From the NCBI GenBank assembly GCA_022828085.1, contig JAJEIY010000074.1, positions 1 to 64,000 of the forward strand: DNA of 64,000 bases, written 5' to 3'. The position numbers and the translations under genes were made by a program. Origin of the DNA: Acidobacteriota bacterium (GTDB lineage Bacteria; Acidobacteriota; Vicinamibacteria; Marinacidobacterales; Marinacidobacteraceae). Position 1 is the stretch's first letter; each line of letters begins with the position of its first letter. The notes beneath the pieces are model-generated. The model made no database searches. It had not been told where the DNA came from and was given only the letters and a program-made list of their open reading frames with translations. Of the stretch, positions 20,666 through 62,870 are shown piece after piece.

Positions 20666-22507
20666 ATGGCCCCTCTGGACGATCCCGTCGCGCGGCTGCT
20701 GCCCTCGCCGCGCCGGGTGGAACGCCTGCCGGGATTCCTTCAACTGGACCGCGGCGATCAGCTCGTCCTCGATTCCGGCTCCCCCGCGGAACGGCAGGCG
20801 GCGGCGTTCCTGGCCGGCCGCCTCGGCGAACGCGTCTCCCTCGATCCGGGCGTCACCGCTGCTCCGGCGACCCCCGTCGGGAACGTGGTCCTCGCGGAAG
20901 CCGGTTCGGATCCGGAGAGCTTCGAGCTCCGGGTGAATACGGCAGGCGCCCGACTTCAGGGTGACCCCGCCGGACTCCGCTACGGGGCCGAAGCGCTGGC
21001 CCAGCTCACCGCCCCCGACGGCCGGGTTCCCGCCGTTCACCTCCGGGACGCGCCCGCCCTCCGCCGCCGCGGCTTCCTGCTCGACATCTCGCGCGGGAAG
21101 GTGCCCCGCCCGGAGACCATCCGCTGGCTCCTCGAGGTACTGGCCCGCCTCCGCTACAACGAACTGTTCCTCTACACCGAGCACACCTTCCAGTTCGAGA
21201 ACCATCCGGAGATCGGTGCGGATTCGGGGGGGTACTCGGCGGCGGAGATCCGGGAGCTGGACACGTGGGCCCGCGGGTGTGGCGTTGAGCTCGTCCCCTG
21301 CCTCCAGACGTTCGGACACTTCCGGCGCATCCTGGAGAAGGCTCCCTACCGGCGCCTCGCGGAATCGGACCGGCTGTGGTCCGTCTCGCCGGAGGCCCCG
21401 GGAACGTACCCCCTGCTCCGGGACCTGCTCCGGGAATATCTGCCCAACTTCGCCTCGGGGTGGGCGCACCTCAACTGCGACGAACCGGTCGATCTCGGGA
21501 AGGGGCTCTCGAGCGCACGGGCAGGCCGCGAAGGTCCGGCGGCGGTCTTCGCGGGGCACGTCAACCGGGTCGCGGGAATGGCGCGCGAGCTCGGGAAACG
21601 CCCCATGATCTGGGCCGACGTCATCGCCGACCACCCGGAAGCTCTCGAGCTGCTCGATTCCTCCATCACGCTGGCCGACTGGTGGTACGAGCCGGATCAC
21701 GACTTCGACCGGGTGCGGCGCTTCCGGGACGCGGGCCGCGACTTCCTGACCGTGGCGGGCACGTCGTCCTGGACGAGCCTGTTTCCGCGCCTTGACACCT
21801 CGCTCCCCAACATTCGGGGACATGCCCGCGCCGCGAAGCGCTTCGGGGCTTCGGGGTTCATCGTCACCGACTGGGGGGACGGCGGCCACTACAACCTGTT
21901 CGGGGGCTCGCTCTTCCCGATCGCGGCGGGCGCCGAAGCGGCCTGGGGCAACGAGGACCGTCCCGAGGGGGAACTCGCCGCGGCGTTCTCCGAACACGTC
22001 GCGGCGGACGCGTCCGGGTTCTCCGGAGAGTTCGCCACCCGGCTCGGAAGGCTGCACGACACCGGGTTCCCGCACTTCAACCATTCGCCGCTCAAGACCG
22101 TGTTCTTCGAGACCCGCCTGCGAAGGGGTGCCCGGATGCCGACGCGCGAAGCGCTGGAAGCGACGCTCGAAGCGCTGCGCCGCCTCGCCGCCGAGACCGA
22201 GGCTCGCGGCCTGCCCCCGGGGCGCTCGGGCGCCGAGTGGCGCTTTGCGTTGGACGCTTCGCTGCTCGCGGCCGAACGCGGCCTCGCTACGCTCCGCTTC
22301 CGTCAGTCGGAGCGGAGCGGCTCGCCCGACGACCGCCGGCTGGCCGGAGAACTGGCGGCGCTCGCCGGCCGGCAGCACGAACTCGCCCGCCGGTTCCGCG
22401 AACTCTGGCTACGCGCGAATCGGCCGGAGGGCATCGGAACCGCGCAGAAGCGCTTCCGCGACGCGATCACGGCGCTCCGGCGAGCGGCGCGCGCCCTCGG
22501 TTCGTAG
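20666..22507 (+). CDS. Glycoside hydrolase family 20-like (beta-N-acetylhexosaminidase)
   Basis: RRRGFLLDISRGKVPRPETIRWLLEVLARLRYNELFLYTEHTFQF; HLNCDEPVDLGKG. Confidence 0.82.
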   Translation: MAPLDDPVARLLPSPRRVERLPGFLQLDRGDQLVLDSGSPAERQAAAFLAGRLGERVSLDPGVTAAPATPVGNVVLAEAGSDPESFELRVNTAGARLQGDPAGLRYGAEALAQLTAPDGRVPAVHLRDAPALRRRGFLLDISRGKVPRPETIRWLLEVLARLRYNELFLYTEHTFQFENHPEIGADSGGYSAAEIRELDTWARGCGVELVPCLQTFGHFRRILEKAPYRRLAESDRLWSVSPEAPGTYPLLRDLLREYLPNFASGWAHLNCDEPVDLGKGLSSARAGREGPAAVFAGHVNRVAGMARELGKRPMIWADVIADHPEALELLDSSITLADWWYEPDHDFDRVRRFRDAGRDFLTVAGTSSWTSLFPRLDTSLPNIRGHARAAKRFGASGFIVTDWGDGGHYNLFGGSLFPIAAGAEAAWGNEDRPEGELAAAFSEHVAADASGFSGEFATRLGRLHDTGFPHFNHSPLKTVFFETRLRRGARMPTREALEATLEALRRLAAETEARGLPPGRSGAEWRFALDASLLAAERGLATLRFRQSERSGSPDDRRLAGELAALAGRQHELARRFRELWLRANRPEGIGTAQKRFRDAITALRRAARALGS

Positions 22508-22510
22508 CCC

Positions 22511-22535
22511 GGAGCGCCAGCCTCCGGCTGGCATC
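22511..22535. repeat. REP-like hairpin (reverse orientation)
   Basis: ggagcgccagcctccggctggcatc. Confidence 0.75.
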
Positions 22536-22682
22536 GCGCGGGAGCGCGAAACCCGCGCTGACGGCGCTCCTCACCGTGAACCGGGCGACGTTCGGCTCGT
22601 TGCGGGCGGCGCGGCACCGGTCCCGGCTGGGCTCGCGCCGATGAGAATCGGTTGCGGCGCGCGTTTCGCAACCTGCGACCGC

Positions 22683-22707
22683 GATGCCGGCCAGAGGCCG
22701 GCGCTCC
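22683..22707. repeat. REP-like hairpin
   Basis: gatgccggccagaggccggcgctcc. Confidence 0.75.
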
Positions 22708-22733
22708 GAGGTCGGCGTTCCAAGCCGTTGGGA

Positions 22734-24290
22734 TCAGTCCCGGATCGAGCCGCGGAAGAAGCTGGGGAGGCCCGGTTCCTCACCGGAATCGGTCTCCTCC
22801 TCCTCGCCCGCGCCAACGGGTTCGGAGGGCTCCGGCTCTTCGGCCGAGACGGCCGGCGCTTCCTCCCCGGCCTCGGGCTCCGGCTCGGTTTCCGGCCCCG
22901 CTTCGATCTCGGAAACGTCGTCGGACGCCTCGGCCGGAGAAGGCTCGGCAGCGGCTTCCCCGGTTGTCTCCTCGGGAGACTCGGCAGCCGCCTCGGGCTG
23001 AGCCGGCTCCGGCTCGCCGGGCTCTGCCACGACTTCCGCACCCGCCTCCGGGCCGGTCTCCGACGAGTCCCCTCCCTCGGCTTCAGGACCCGCCGCTTCG
23101 ACAACGTCCGCGGAGCTCGGGAGGGCCGGTTGCTCCGGAGGGGGAGCCGCCTCGACGGCGGGCGTCGCGCCGGCGGCGCCCCGCGAGGGACGGGCGAAGC
23201 TGCGAAAGGCCCGGTCGTAGCGAGCCAGCACCGAGTCCCAATCGTGGTGGGACTCCAGGAATTCGCGGCCGGCCGCACCCATCCGGGGGAACAGGGACGG
23301 ATCCCGCAGGCCGAGTTCGAGAATGAGTTCGAACTCGTCGTAGTTCTGGTAGTAGAGACCACCGCCCGAAGCGCGGCACTCCCCGGTGAGTTCGGTCGCC
23401 GAAGCGTTCACCAGAATCGGGACACCCAGGGAAAATGGCTCCGCCGCCGTTGTCGAGAAGGCGGCGAGGCGCTCGGGGATCACGGCCACGACGGCGCCGC
23501 CCACCGCGTCGAGGCGTTCCCGCGGGCTCGCCGGACGGACGACCCGGATGTCCGGGCGTTCCGGAATCTTGAGGGCCGCCGGCCCGATCAGGACGAGTTC
23601 GAGCGCCGCATCCGCATGGCGGTCCTTGAACGTCGAAAAGAACCGCAGCAGTTCTTCGATGCCGCGGCCCGGCTCCAGTGGTCCGGCTGCCAGCAGATAG
23701 GGCCCGGTCAACCCGGTGCGCCGCCGAAAGGCCGCCGCATCCGCGGTGCGCGGCAGCAGCAGTGTCCCGGGGACGGTTTCGCGCATGCGGCGGTGCACCT
23801 GATAGCGCTTCAGAACCAGGATCTCCTCGGCCTCGCTGCCGAACACGAAGGCGGCGGGGTGCTCGAAGATGTCCGACGCTCGGGGGGTATCCGCCCCCTC
23901 ATCGGTAAAGGGGAGCAGAACGGTTCGTCCCGGGTCCACTTTCGCGGCTTCCGCACAAACGGACGACGCGCCGAACAGCACGACCAGGTCGTAGTCGCCC
24001 GGCCGATCCCGAAGGTACTGGAGCAGGCCGGTAGACGTCAGGTGGCCGGCGCCGGCCGGGCCCTGGGCTTCCGCCTCCGATGGGTCGCCGGCCGGGAATC
24101 GGACCACCCGGACTCCCTGATCCTGGAACTCCCCTTCCCGAAACGTCTCTTCCGATTCTCCCGCCGCGGTCGTGGTAGCCACCGTGGTTCGCCAGCCGCC
24201 AGGCGCCCGGCGGGCCAACTCCGCGGCGAGCAACTCCGGCCGGGTGGCGTCTCCCGCCCCGAACCGCGGAGTTACGAAGACCAGCCGCAT
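22734..24290 (-). CDS. Glycosyltransferase (group 1-like) with long acidic disordered C-terminal tail
   Basis: MRLVFVTPRFGAGDATRPELLAAEL...PYLLAAGPLEPGRGIEELL; C-terminal ~150 aa rich in Glu/Pro/Ala. Confidence 0.8.
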   Translation of the reverse strand: MRLVFVTPRFGAGDATRPELLAAELARRAPGGWRTTVATTTAAGESEETFREGEFQDQGVRVVRFPAGDPSEAEAQGPAGAGHLTSTGLLQYLRDRPGDYDLVVLFGASSVCAEAAKVDPGRTVLLPFTDEGADTPRASDIFEHPAAFVFGSEAEEILVLKRYQVHRRMRETVPGTLLLPRTADAAAFRRRTGLTGPYLLAAGPLEPGRGIEELLRFFSTFKDRHADAALELVLIGPAALKIPERPDIRVVRPASPRERLDAVGGAVVAVIPERLAAFSTTAAEPFSLGVPILVNASATELTGECRASGGGLYYQNYDEFELILELGLRDPSLFPRMGAAGREFLESHHDWDSVLARYDRAFRSFARPSRGAAGATPAVEAAPPPEQPALPSSADVVEAAGPEAEGGDSSETGPEAGAEVVAEPGEPEPAQPEAAAESPEETTGEAAAEPSPAEASDDVSEIEAGPETEPEPEAGEEAPAVSAEEPEPSEPVGAGEEEETDSGEEPGLPSFFRGSIRD

Positions 24291-24291
24291 C

Positions 24292-25089
24292 TCACTTCTC
24301 TCCCGAGGCGCCATTCCCGCTCCGGCGTCCTCCGCCGCGGTTCGGGCGGGACCCCTGCCGGGAGTTCTGACGCGCCGGCGCTCCCCCGCTCTGGCGGGAC
24401 CCCTGACCGGATCCCTGCCGGTCCCGGCGGCCGCCACTCTCCCGGTCCGAGCGGCCGCCGTCACTTCGCCGCCGGTCGCCGCGGCCCCGGTCCGAACGGC
24501 CGCCCCGGTTGTCGGACCGTCCCCGTCCGGATCCGCCGCTCCGCTGCGCCGCTTCGGAGCTCCCGGCCGCGGAGCTGAACGAGAAATCGGCGTGGACGCC
24601 GAGCCGGCGGAGTTCCGACTTGATCACGTTGACCTCGAGACGCGTCAGTTCGAGATCCCGGTTCGTGGCCCACAGGAGCCGGCGGTGGTATTCGTTGATC
24701 TCGGCCTGGCGGGCAGCCTGTTCCACGGCGGGGTGGATGTTGACGAGCAGGCGGGTGAGCGGCGTGAGGAGCCAGCGCACCATCCGCACGAGACCGAACC
24801 GAGAACCGCGAAACGCCTGCTTCGAGAGCCGGATGTTCCAGCGGGAGGTGTCGCGGGAACGGATCCGCTCCGCGAACTCCTCGCTGAAGCCGCGCGATCC
24901 GAGCGGCGACAGCATCCGCTTCTTGACGTCGGCCTTGAATTCACGTTCGCTCTTCGCTCCTTCTTCCGCCCGCTCACGGGCAACCCGGCGGATGTCCGCC
25001 ATGATCTTCTCGACGTCCGGCTTGAGAGCGGACACGGCCTTCTGGGAAGTTCCCTTCCCGGCCTTTTCGTTGGCTATGGAAATCGCCAT
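24292..25089 (-). CDS. Hypothetical helical protein with RG/RGG-like basic C-terminal tail
   Basis: ORF 265 aa; tail GRGRSDNRGGRSDRGRGDRRRSDGGRSDRESGGRRDRQGSGQGSRQ; stop is 1 bp from the GT start. Confidence 0.75.
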   Translation of the reverse strand: MAISIANEKAGKGTSQKAVSALKPDVEKIMADIRRVARERAEEGAKSEREFKADVKKRMLSPLGSRGFSEEFAERIRSRDTSRWNIRLSKQAFRGSRFGLVRMVRWLLTPLTRLLVNIHPAVEQAARQAEINEYHRRLLWATNRDLELTRLEVNVIKSELRRLGVHADFSFSSAAGSSEAAQRSGGSGRGRSDNRGGRSDRGRGDRRRSDGGRSDRESGGRRDRQGSGQGSRQSGGAPARQNSRQGSRPNRGGGRRSGNGASGEK

Positions 25090-25736: not shown

Positions 25737-25965
25737 TTGCTTCCTCCCTCTCCCGGGATGTCTGGGTCTCCGCGATCCCCGGAGTTGGGGATGCCGCCAC
25801 GCGGGCGGGCAGGGGCCGTTGTCCGGCCGGAGTCTGCGTTGGCCGCGGAAACCGTAATGACGCCCGCTTCGAGACCCTGGTCAATCCCCGCTTGCGGGGT
25901 TGCGGGTCCCGAGAATCCGGGCGCCGCTTGGTCCCGGTATCCTATCCCGTAACACACAGCACTCC

Positions 25966-27066
25966 GTGGAAAAAGTCACGCGGCGGCCGCGGATCGCATT
26001 CCCGGAATCGCGAGACCGGCGCGTCGCGGAGGCGGTCCGGGCGCTTCGGGACGGCCCGGAACTGGAGCCGCTGCTGGTCGGGCGTCCGGCCGCGCCCCCC
26101 GACGATCCGCGACCCGACTCCCTGGGGGGCGTCCGGACGGTGGAGCCCCGCGGAGCGGCTCTCGAGCAGGCCGCCGAACTGCTCTGGAGGAAGCGGCGCG
26201 CCCGCGGGATGACACGGACCGAGGCGCTCGAAACCGCCCGCGACCCCCTGGTCTTCGCGAATCTGCTCATCGCCGCCGGAGAGGCGGACGGCTCGGTCGC
26301 GGGCGCCGCCACCACCACCGCGGACGTGATCCGCGCCGGCCTGCTCGCCGTCGGCACCCGGCCGGGAGTCTCCCGCGTTTCCGGCGCCTTCGTGATGGAG
26401 TTTCCGGACGGCCGGGCTCCGCTCCTGTTCGCGGACGGCGCCGTGATCCCGCGGCCTGATCTCGGCGAGCTCGTCGAAATCGCGCTCCTGTCCGCCGAGA
26501 CGGCCAGCGACCTGCTCGACATGGAGCCCCGCATCGCCTTCTTGTCGTTTTCGACCAGGGGCAGCGCCGATCACCCCGACGCCCGGCGGATGGCGGACGC
26601 GGCGCGGCGGGTGCGCGAACTCCGGCCCGAACTGGCCGTGGACGGGGAGCTCCAGGTGGACGCGGCGGTCGTCCCTTCCATCGGGAAGAGCAAGGCGCCG
26701 GAGAGTCCGGTAGCGGGAAGCGCGAACGTGCTCATCTTCCCCGACCTGGCCGCCGGGAACATCGCCTACAAGCTGGTCGAACGCCTCGCCGGGGCCTCCG
26801 CGACGGGACCGATCCTCCAGGGACTCGCAGCCCCGGTGAACGATCTCTCCCGGGGGGCGAGCGTCCCGGACATCATCCGGCTGGCGCGGCTGACGGCGCG
26901 CGCCGCGCGGAATCGGGCGTCGCAGCGGGTAGCCGGTGGTGGAACTGACGCGGCATTCCCGAGCTACGAACCATGCGGGCCGGCTCTCGCCGTCCCCCAT
27001 GGTCCGTGCTCAAGGGGTCTACGCGGGGCTCGACTCTCGCCCCGCTCCGGAAGCGACACCCGCTGA
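25966..27066 (+). CDS. Phosphate acetyltransferase/phosphotransacetylase-like (PTA_PTB fold), C-terminus extended into a repeat element
   Basis: [21 protein letters not shown]...[17 protein letters not shown]...[50 protein letters not shown] start proposed. Confidence 0.85.
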
Positions 27067-62300: not shown

Positions 62301-62870
62301 TTGCTGGGCGCCACCCGTATTCGAGAGCTGTTCGAGGCGCTCGATCAGGAGCTTGCCGGGCGTTCGGTCGTCGGGGAGATCGGGTTGCTCGGCGGCGCGG
62401 TCATGTGCCTCGTGTTTCAGGCACGGGAGGCCACCCGGGACGTGGATGCGATCTTCGCACCGACCCGCGAGATTCGGCAGGCCGCCGGAGCGGTCGCCCG
62501 CGCGTACGGGCTGCCGGCGGATTGGCTGAACGACGCGGCGAAGGGCTTCGTTCTTTCAGCGCCTCCCCGTACTGACGTACTGGATCTGCCCAACCTGCGG
62601 GTCTGGGCCCCGACGGCCGAGTACCTGCTCGCGATGAAGTGTGTCTCCGCGCGCTACGACACCCACGATGCAGACGATGTCGCCTTCCTGGTCCGGCATC
62701 TCGGCCTGGTTTCGCCCGAGGAGGTGTTCGAGCGGATCACCCGCTACTACCCGCTCGAACGGGTGCCGGCCAGGACCCGCTTTCTCGTTGAGGAACTGCT
62801 GGGAGCAAGCGGGGACATGGGAACTGAGGACCGGCCCGGGACTTCCGCCGGGTCCGCGGGCGAGCGGTAG
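62301..62870 (+). CDS. DUF6036-like nucleotidyltransferase
   Basis: VGEIGLLGGAVMCLVFQAREATRDVDAIFAP (GG...RDVDA nucleotidyltransferase motif); AEYLLAMKCVSARYDTHDADDVAFLVRHLGL; TTG start 2 bp after the HTH stop. Confidence 0.82.
   Translation: MLGATRIRELFEALDQELAGRSVVGEIGLLGGAVMCLVFQAREATRDVDAIFAPTREIRQAAGAVARAYGLPADWLNDAAKGFVLSAPPRTDVLDLPNLRVWAPTAEYLLAMKCVSARYDTHDADDVAFLVRHLGLVSPEEVFERITRYYPLERVPARTRFLVEELLGASGDMGTEDRPGTSAGSAGER

Follow-up and report, generated by a model that had tools for sequence, protein, structure and literature searches.

Two adjacent genes of an Acidobacteriota genome encode proteins ending in disordered tails of opposite charge, and this charge pairing is kept in all 14 compared genomes of the order (ten from the same family and four from its sister family, several of them incomplete). 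In each of them, a protein with a basic RG-rich tail (net charge +11 to +15) co-occurs with a cognate glycosyltransferase whose tail is acidic (-10 to -47). In the window, as we call the whole 64,000-nucleotide stretch of DNA analyzed here, this second protein is probably a pseudo-glycosyltransferase which has lost catalysis. The sequences and structural models suggest a membrane-associated scaffold docking a glycosyltransferase by charge and by an aromatic peptide; in the window, this scaffold would have been kept together with an enzyme that is no longer active. We give this reading an even chance.

The source assembly comprises 3.57 Mb in 93 contigs, the window being contig C68. The features discussed below are the following (window coordinates):

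22734..24290, minus strand: GT4-like pseudo-glycosyltransferase (probable), 518 aa, cognate of the GT4 of the relatives' cluster
22737..22769, minus strand: C-terminal peptide LPSFFRGSIRD, candidate docking motif
22770..23195, minus strand: E/P/A-rich acidic disordered tail (pLDDT <45)
23196..24290, minus strand: degenerate GT-B core, residues 1-365 (pLDDT about 90)
24292..25089, minus strand: RG-tailed helical protein, 265 aa
24292..24582, minus strand: basic disordered RG/GRSD tail, residues 170-265 plus stop (net +14, pLDDT about 44)
24583..25089, minus strand: helical core of the RG protein, residues 1-169 (alignments A1 and A2; AlphaFold2)
24745..24795, minus strand: amphipathic basic helix, residues 99-115, with a long helix next to it (AlphaFold2); candidate membrane-interface segment
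25401..25736, minus strand: STAS-domain protein, 111 aa, at the start of the conserved cluster (Pfam STAS, E=1.4e-13)
25900..27066, plus strand: divergent phosphate acetyltransferase, syntenic anchor of the cluster (Pfam PTA_PTB, 3.1e-95)

Rechecking of the gene positions bore out the coordinates, the lengths and the one-base gap reported for the pair in the preliminary description, this gap being 1 nt in all eight members of the genus and 2 nt in both remaining genera of the family. The oppositely charged, disordered tails it reported are likewise confirmed: in the window, their net charges are +14 for the RG protein and -38 for the glycosyltransferase, and AlphaFold2 assigns both a pLDDT of about 35-47, i.e., no structure. 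As a background, 384 kb of the same genome were passed through a simple codon-position filter, which yielded 238 gene calls of 150 aa or more. The final 80 residues of the glycosyltransferase (-25) are the most acidic of this set, the runner-up reaching -13, while those of the RG protein (+14) rank second among the basic ones, behind an entry (+16) which looks like a spurious ORF. Since both tails are extreme in this genome sample and kept among relatives, a chance or composition artefact could be ruled out. A wrong frame or an antisense ORF was also discarded on the basis of the low dN/dS or constant charge of the tails and of the retention of both frames in 14 genomes. Loss of the tails or of their co-occurrence among relatives, named beforehand as the result that would speak against the pairing, was sought in these 14 genomes and was not found. 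A single-protein search of the genome collection returned close relatives only, from Acidobacteriota metagenome assemblies; one close relative, bin61, shares its name with a bin from a study of the sponge Aplysina aerophoba (PMC5649159).

Other observations were made in the same genome. Antisense to the glycosyltransferase and the RG tail lies an open frame of 928 codons (window 21792-24578, plus strand), which looks like a by-product of high G+C content, and an ORF call with Val-Arg-Pro-like repeats (VVVPRVVV...; L179, 2003-2452, minus strand) may be spurious. ARAGORN located a selenocysteine tRNA in the window (62381-62468, plus strand) and this lineage may thus make selenoproteins.

Neither Pfam nor, near the cut-off, NCBIfam gave a match for the RG protein. 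Its core, which is present in 179 of the 193 genomes of the class and only sparsely distributed in the rest of the phylum sample, was not covered by a family model in either database. The window protein matches profile A1, which includes its own sequence, with E=3.6e-63, and is recovered with E=2e-20 by a single-sequence search from a relative of the sister family. The AlphaFold2 model, of moderate confidence (mean pLDDT 54), places helices at residues 26-65, 70-77, 99-115, and 118-162, and a PDB fold search with this modest-confidence model of the core returned no match. With a hydrophobic moment of about 0.6 and a net charge of +3, the 99-115 helix probably lies on the inner membrane. The tail which follows the core contains 22 Arg and 25 Gly among its 96 residues. 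The core and the tail have dN/dS values of 0.18 and 0.19, respectively, within the genus; the charge of the tail is no more constant than under neutral simulation, though its sequence is conserved.

The second gene had been described as encoding a glycosyltransferase, an assignment which stands for the fold and is doubtful for the activity. Its core adopts a predicted GT-B fold, with Foldseek E-values down to 1e-14 against GT-B/GT4 enzymes, and the best PDB matches include MshA, PimB', and PimA-type GT4 enzymes. The Pfam Glycos_transf_1 score is only 14 bits (E=0.036), under the 26.4-bit cut-off, whereas a relative from the sister family reaches 49.8 bits. Among the cluster enzymes, the protein is nearest to GT4 (E 3e-58, vs 5e-33 for GT1 of the same sister-family locus). 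The active sites of 34 relatives (four from the sister family and 30 other class members) were compared with those of ten members of the window's family. Several residues near-invariant in these relatives have been lost from every one of the ten family members. They comprise the GG loop, the AHDEP His, the GRIDxGK Lys, the first EX7E Glu, and a Trp and a Tyr from the acceptor half. The GRIDxGK Arg survives in just one of the ten. The Arg/Lys pair and the EX7E motif are known donor-binding residues of GT4 enzymes (PMC3898925). In the window protein, the Arg is replaced by Pro204, the Lys by Arg209, and the first Glu by Ala276. The donor-phosphate pair is Pro and Arg across the genus, compared with Arg in 34/34 and Lys in 33/34 relatives. 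Similarly, the first EX7E Glu, found in 4/4 sister-family and 29/30 class relatives, is Ala in all ten family members, which retain the second Glu. An active glycosyltransferase is thus judged unlikely, the active-site residues being gone, and the core nonetheless evolves under purifying selection (dN/dS 0.17 within the genus).

The whole glycosyltransferase tail (153 aa, 42 Asp/Glu, net -38) evolves in a different manner. Its acidic part, with a dN/dS of 0.50 within the genus, differs from the window copy at 31-77 aligned residues in other members, with a net charge shift of just -1 to -3. Neutral simulation predicts a shift of +10 to +20, and none of the 400 runs per comparison was as acidic as the observed tail. 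The sequence of the acidic tail thus changes fast while its charge is held beyond neutral expectation; with a simple mutation model and related genomes, this evidence is strong and not exact. The hydrophobic-basic peptide closing the tail, which the preliminary description had singled out, is real and not incidental: this is where conservation within the tail lies, 9 of its 11 columns being invariant in the genus, vs 31 of 165 in the remainder. Genus members have it as LPSFFR(G/S)SIR, and the family's other two genera as LPSFFRSPIRR and LTGFFGSSIRR; the sister family has LPSF(F/Y)(Q/R)xx(I/V) as well as a second LPxF(F/Y). A strict DNA pattern for the LPSFF peptide occurs once in the genome, which speaks against a motif common to other proteins of the organism.

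In relatives, the gene pair is part of a larger cluster encoding a STAS protein, a UbiA-family prenyltransferase, the RG-core protein and four glycosyltransferases (GT1-GT2-GT3-GT4), beside the divergent phosphate acetyltransferase. The UbiA protein, whose Pfam assignment is UbiA only, presumably resembles decaprenyl-phosphate phosphoribosyltransferases, judging from its sequence. The complete cluster is found on a single contig in one class member (G032, contig C1, 7,480,314 bases, locus L059). The STAS gene upstream of the RG gene and the phosphate acetyltransferase are at the same place in 14/14 order genomes. In the window's family, the order phosphate acetyltransferase, STAS, RG is unaltered and GT1-3 are missing from the locus. 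No UbiA or GT2/GT3 orthologue was found at the locus or in the genome in any of the ten family members, GT1 is absent from the locus, and the GT4 query that recovers GT1 in the sister family finds none. Glycos_transf_1 matches number 2-4 per genome in this family and 33-42 in the sister family, where the tailed GT4 lies about 3.45 kb downstream of the RG protein. Adjacency as the general arrangement of the pair is thereby ruled out. Since UbiA and GT1-3 were lost in the window's family, the RG/GT adjacency is secondary, and would most simply have arisen through deletion of the intervening genes. The co-translation which had been read from it is consequently a derived state, or at least not a general one. 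The idea of a working surface-polysaccharide machine finds no support in this family either, where the pathway genes are gone and the glycosyltransferase active site is destroyed.

The comparison of tail patterns covered 91 loci in 17 families. All 14 loci of the order have a basic RG tail that lacks an acidic stretch, the acid being carried by GT4. In two other families, f3 and f7, the RG protein is tailless and GT4 has no acid; one more f3/f7 locus is a masked, fused frame. In the remaining families, an Arg block is present in 63 complete RG proteins and is followed in cis by an acidic stretch in 61 of them; an acidic tail is found on GT4 in 0/56. In a comparison set up after the data had been seen, an LPG[WF] motif ends GT1 in 60/60 readable cases outside the order and f3/f7, while shuffled tails predict 2.9; an LPGW-type peptide occurs on GT4 in 0/56 loci of the same families, and f3/f7 have no peptide on GT1 (0/6) or on GT4 (0/8). 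The GT1 consensus is E-P-L-P-G-W-F-x-R-R-R, also written LPGW[F/L/W]xRRR, and is of the same type as LPSFF. The two forms differ (LPSFFRGSIRD vs EPLPGWFARRRR) and may be non-homologous. At the C-termini of GT1 (L052-L061, L114-L167), the conserved stretch reads EPLPGW(F/L/W)xRRR..PPA..V...LPxGP, the part after LPGW being likewise conserved; GT1 of the sister family (L041-L044) has no LPGW peptide and ends in GLLARLFG-like sequences instead. Collectively, the basic tail, the acidic counter-stretch, and the aromatic peptide come and go jointly, on different proteins. An unrooted tree of concatenated RG and GT4 cores splits the order, f3/f7, and the others. The shift between cis and trans, in whichever direction, represents one or few evolutionary events and is thus of small statistical weight.

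While conservation, co-occurrence, active-site loss, selection, and predicted disorder were computed directly, it is from these data that we infer membrane contact, physical binding, a scaffold role, and any present function. In the mechanism we propose, the RG protein would be the scaffold, combining a helical core, whose amphipathic helix would lie on the membrane, with a basic disordered tail. Its partner, a glycosyltransferase from the same operon, would be held by two contacts: 1) a conserved aromatic peptide of the LPxFF/LPGWF type and 2) an acidic stretch neutralizing, or competing for, the basic tail of the scaffold. The scaffold itself bears the acidic stretch in most of the class, where the peptide is on GT1; in the window's order, GT4 bears both. 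The window's family no longer has the glycan pathway, the scaffold and a dead GT4 persist there under purifying selection, and the pair would therefore now most likely be a non-catalytic complex. It could still serve the cell envelope, act in regulation by way of the STAS protein, or have taken on a new role.

Other explanations must be weighed against this docking mechanism. Nucleic-acid or lipid binding is a typical property of RG and Arg-block sequences, and the target of the basic tail might accordingly be RNA, polyphosphate, or anionic lipid and not the glycosyltransferase, the acidic stretch being a counter-ion or an autoinhibitory element and the two proteins having no need to touch. 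The acid carried in cis at 61/63 loci outside the order fits such self-shielding; within the order, however, it is never on the RG protein and always (14/14) on the operon's glycosyltransferase, and the distribution of the docking-like peptide follows that of the clusters which have tails, so that we regard this explanation as rather unlikely. The LPxFF/LPGWFxRRR peptides themselves could be membrane-interface anchors of peripheral glycosyltransferases, with no docking to a scaffold. An aromatic pair followed by Arg residues, above all in GT1, does resemble interfacial membrane peptides, but f3 and f7, which have the same cluster and no RG tail, have no such peptide, and in the window's genus the peptide comes after an acidic tail and ends in Asp; we find this quite unlikely.

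The loss of the pathway genes, the destroyed active site, and the long branch in the tree of concatenated RG and GT4 cores could also be taken as signs that the pair is a decaying, functionless relic of a lost pathway. Against this, the pair is intact in 10/10 genomes from three genera, dN/dS is 0.17-0.19 in both cores and in the RG tail, and the acidic tail holds its charge compared with simulation, which makes decay very improbable. Returning to the docking mechanism, a broader formulation would be a modular electrostatic-plus-peptide docking code, in which the counter-tail and the peptide move between scaffold and enzymes while their match is kept, and in which one lineage keeps the complex after losing both pathway and activity. 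We put this forward tentatively and consider it somewhat unlikely. If true, it would provide a natural case of complementary disordered tails under selection between two proteins of one operon, and it would come with its own internal comparison, since the acidic part is in cis in most families and in trans in a single order. The conversion of a glycosyltransferase into a pseudoenzyme with its partner retained would also allow the scaffold function to be separated from catalysis. A search of the open-access literature found no description of the cluster or of the pair.

Several known systems offer partial parallels. EcpK of Myxococcus xanthus, a pseudokinase with an important part in exopolysaccharide synthesis, is likewise, according to the accessible part of that report, a dead enzyme retained in a polysaccharide pathway (PMC12004946). 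It differs by belonging to an unrelated enzyme class and pathway. We know of no charged-tail partner of EcpK. With PimA, MshA, and PimB', the window glycosyltransferase shares the GT-B fold, and it clearly descends from GT4 relatives whose active sites are intact. Unlike these enzymes, it is devoid of the first EX7E Glu, of the Arg/Lys pair, and of other residues, and it possesses a 153-residue acidic tail. WbdD, from Escherichia coli O9a O-antigen assembly, has domains for kinase and methyltransferase activity, and the accessible part of the source (PMC3482155) mentions no disordered tails of opposite charge. Pfam, NCBIfam, and a PDB fold search with the modest-confidence model indicated no sequence or domain relation between the RG protein and WbdD. 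The likeness would instead be one of arrangement: WbdD, a coiled-coil protein, recruits WbdA to the membrane via its non-catalytic C-terminal region, thus bringing a glycosyltransferase of the same cluster there by protein-protein contact, as that part of the source reports (PMC3482155), and the RG protein, which co-occurs with its glycosyltransferase, may act similarly.
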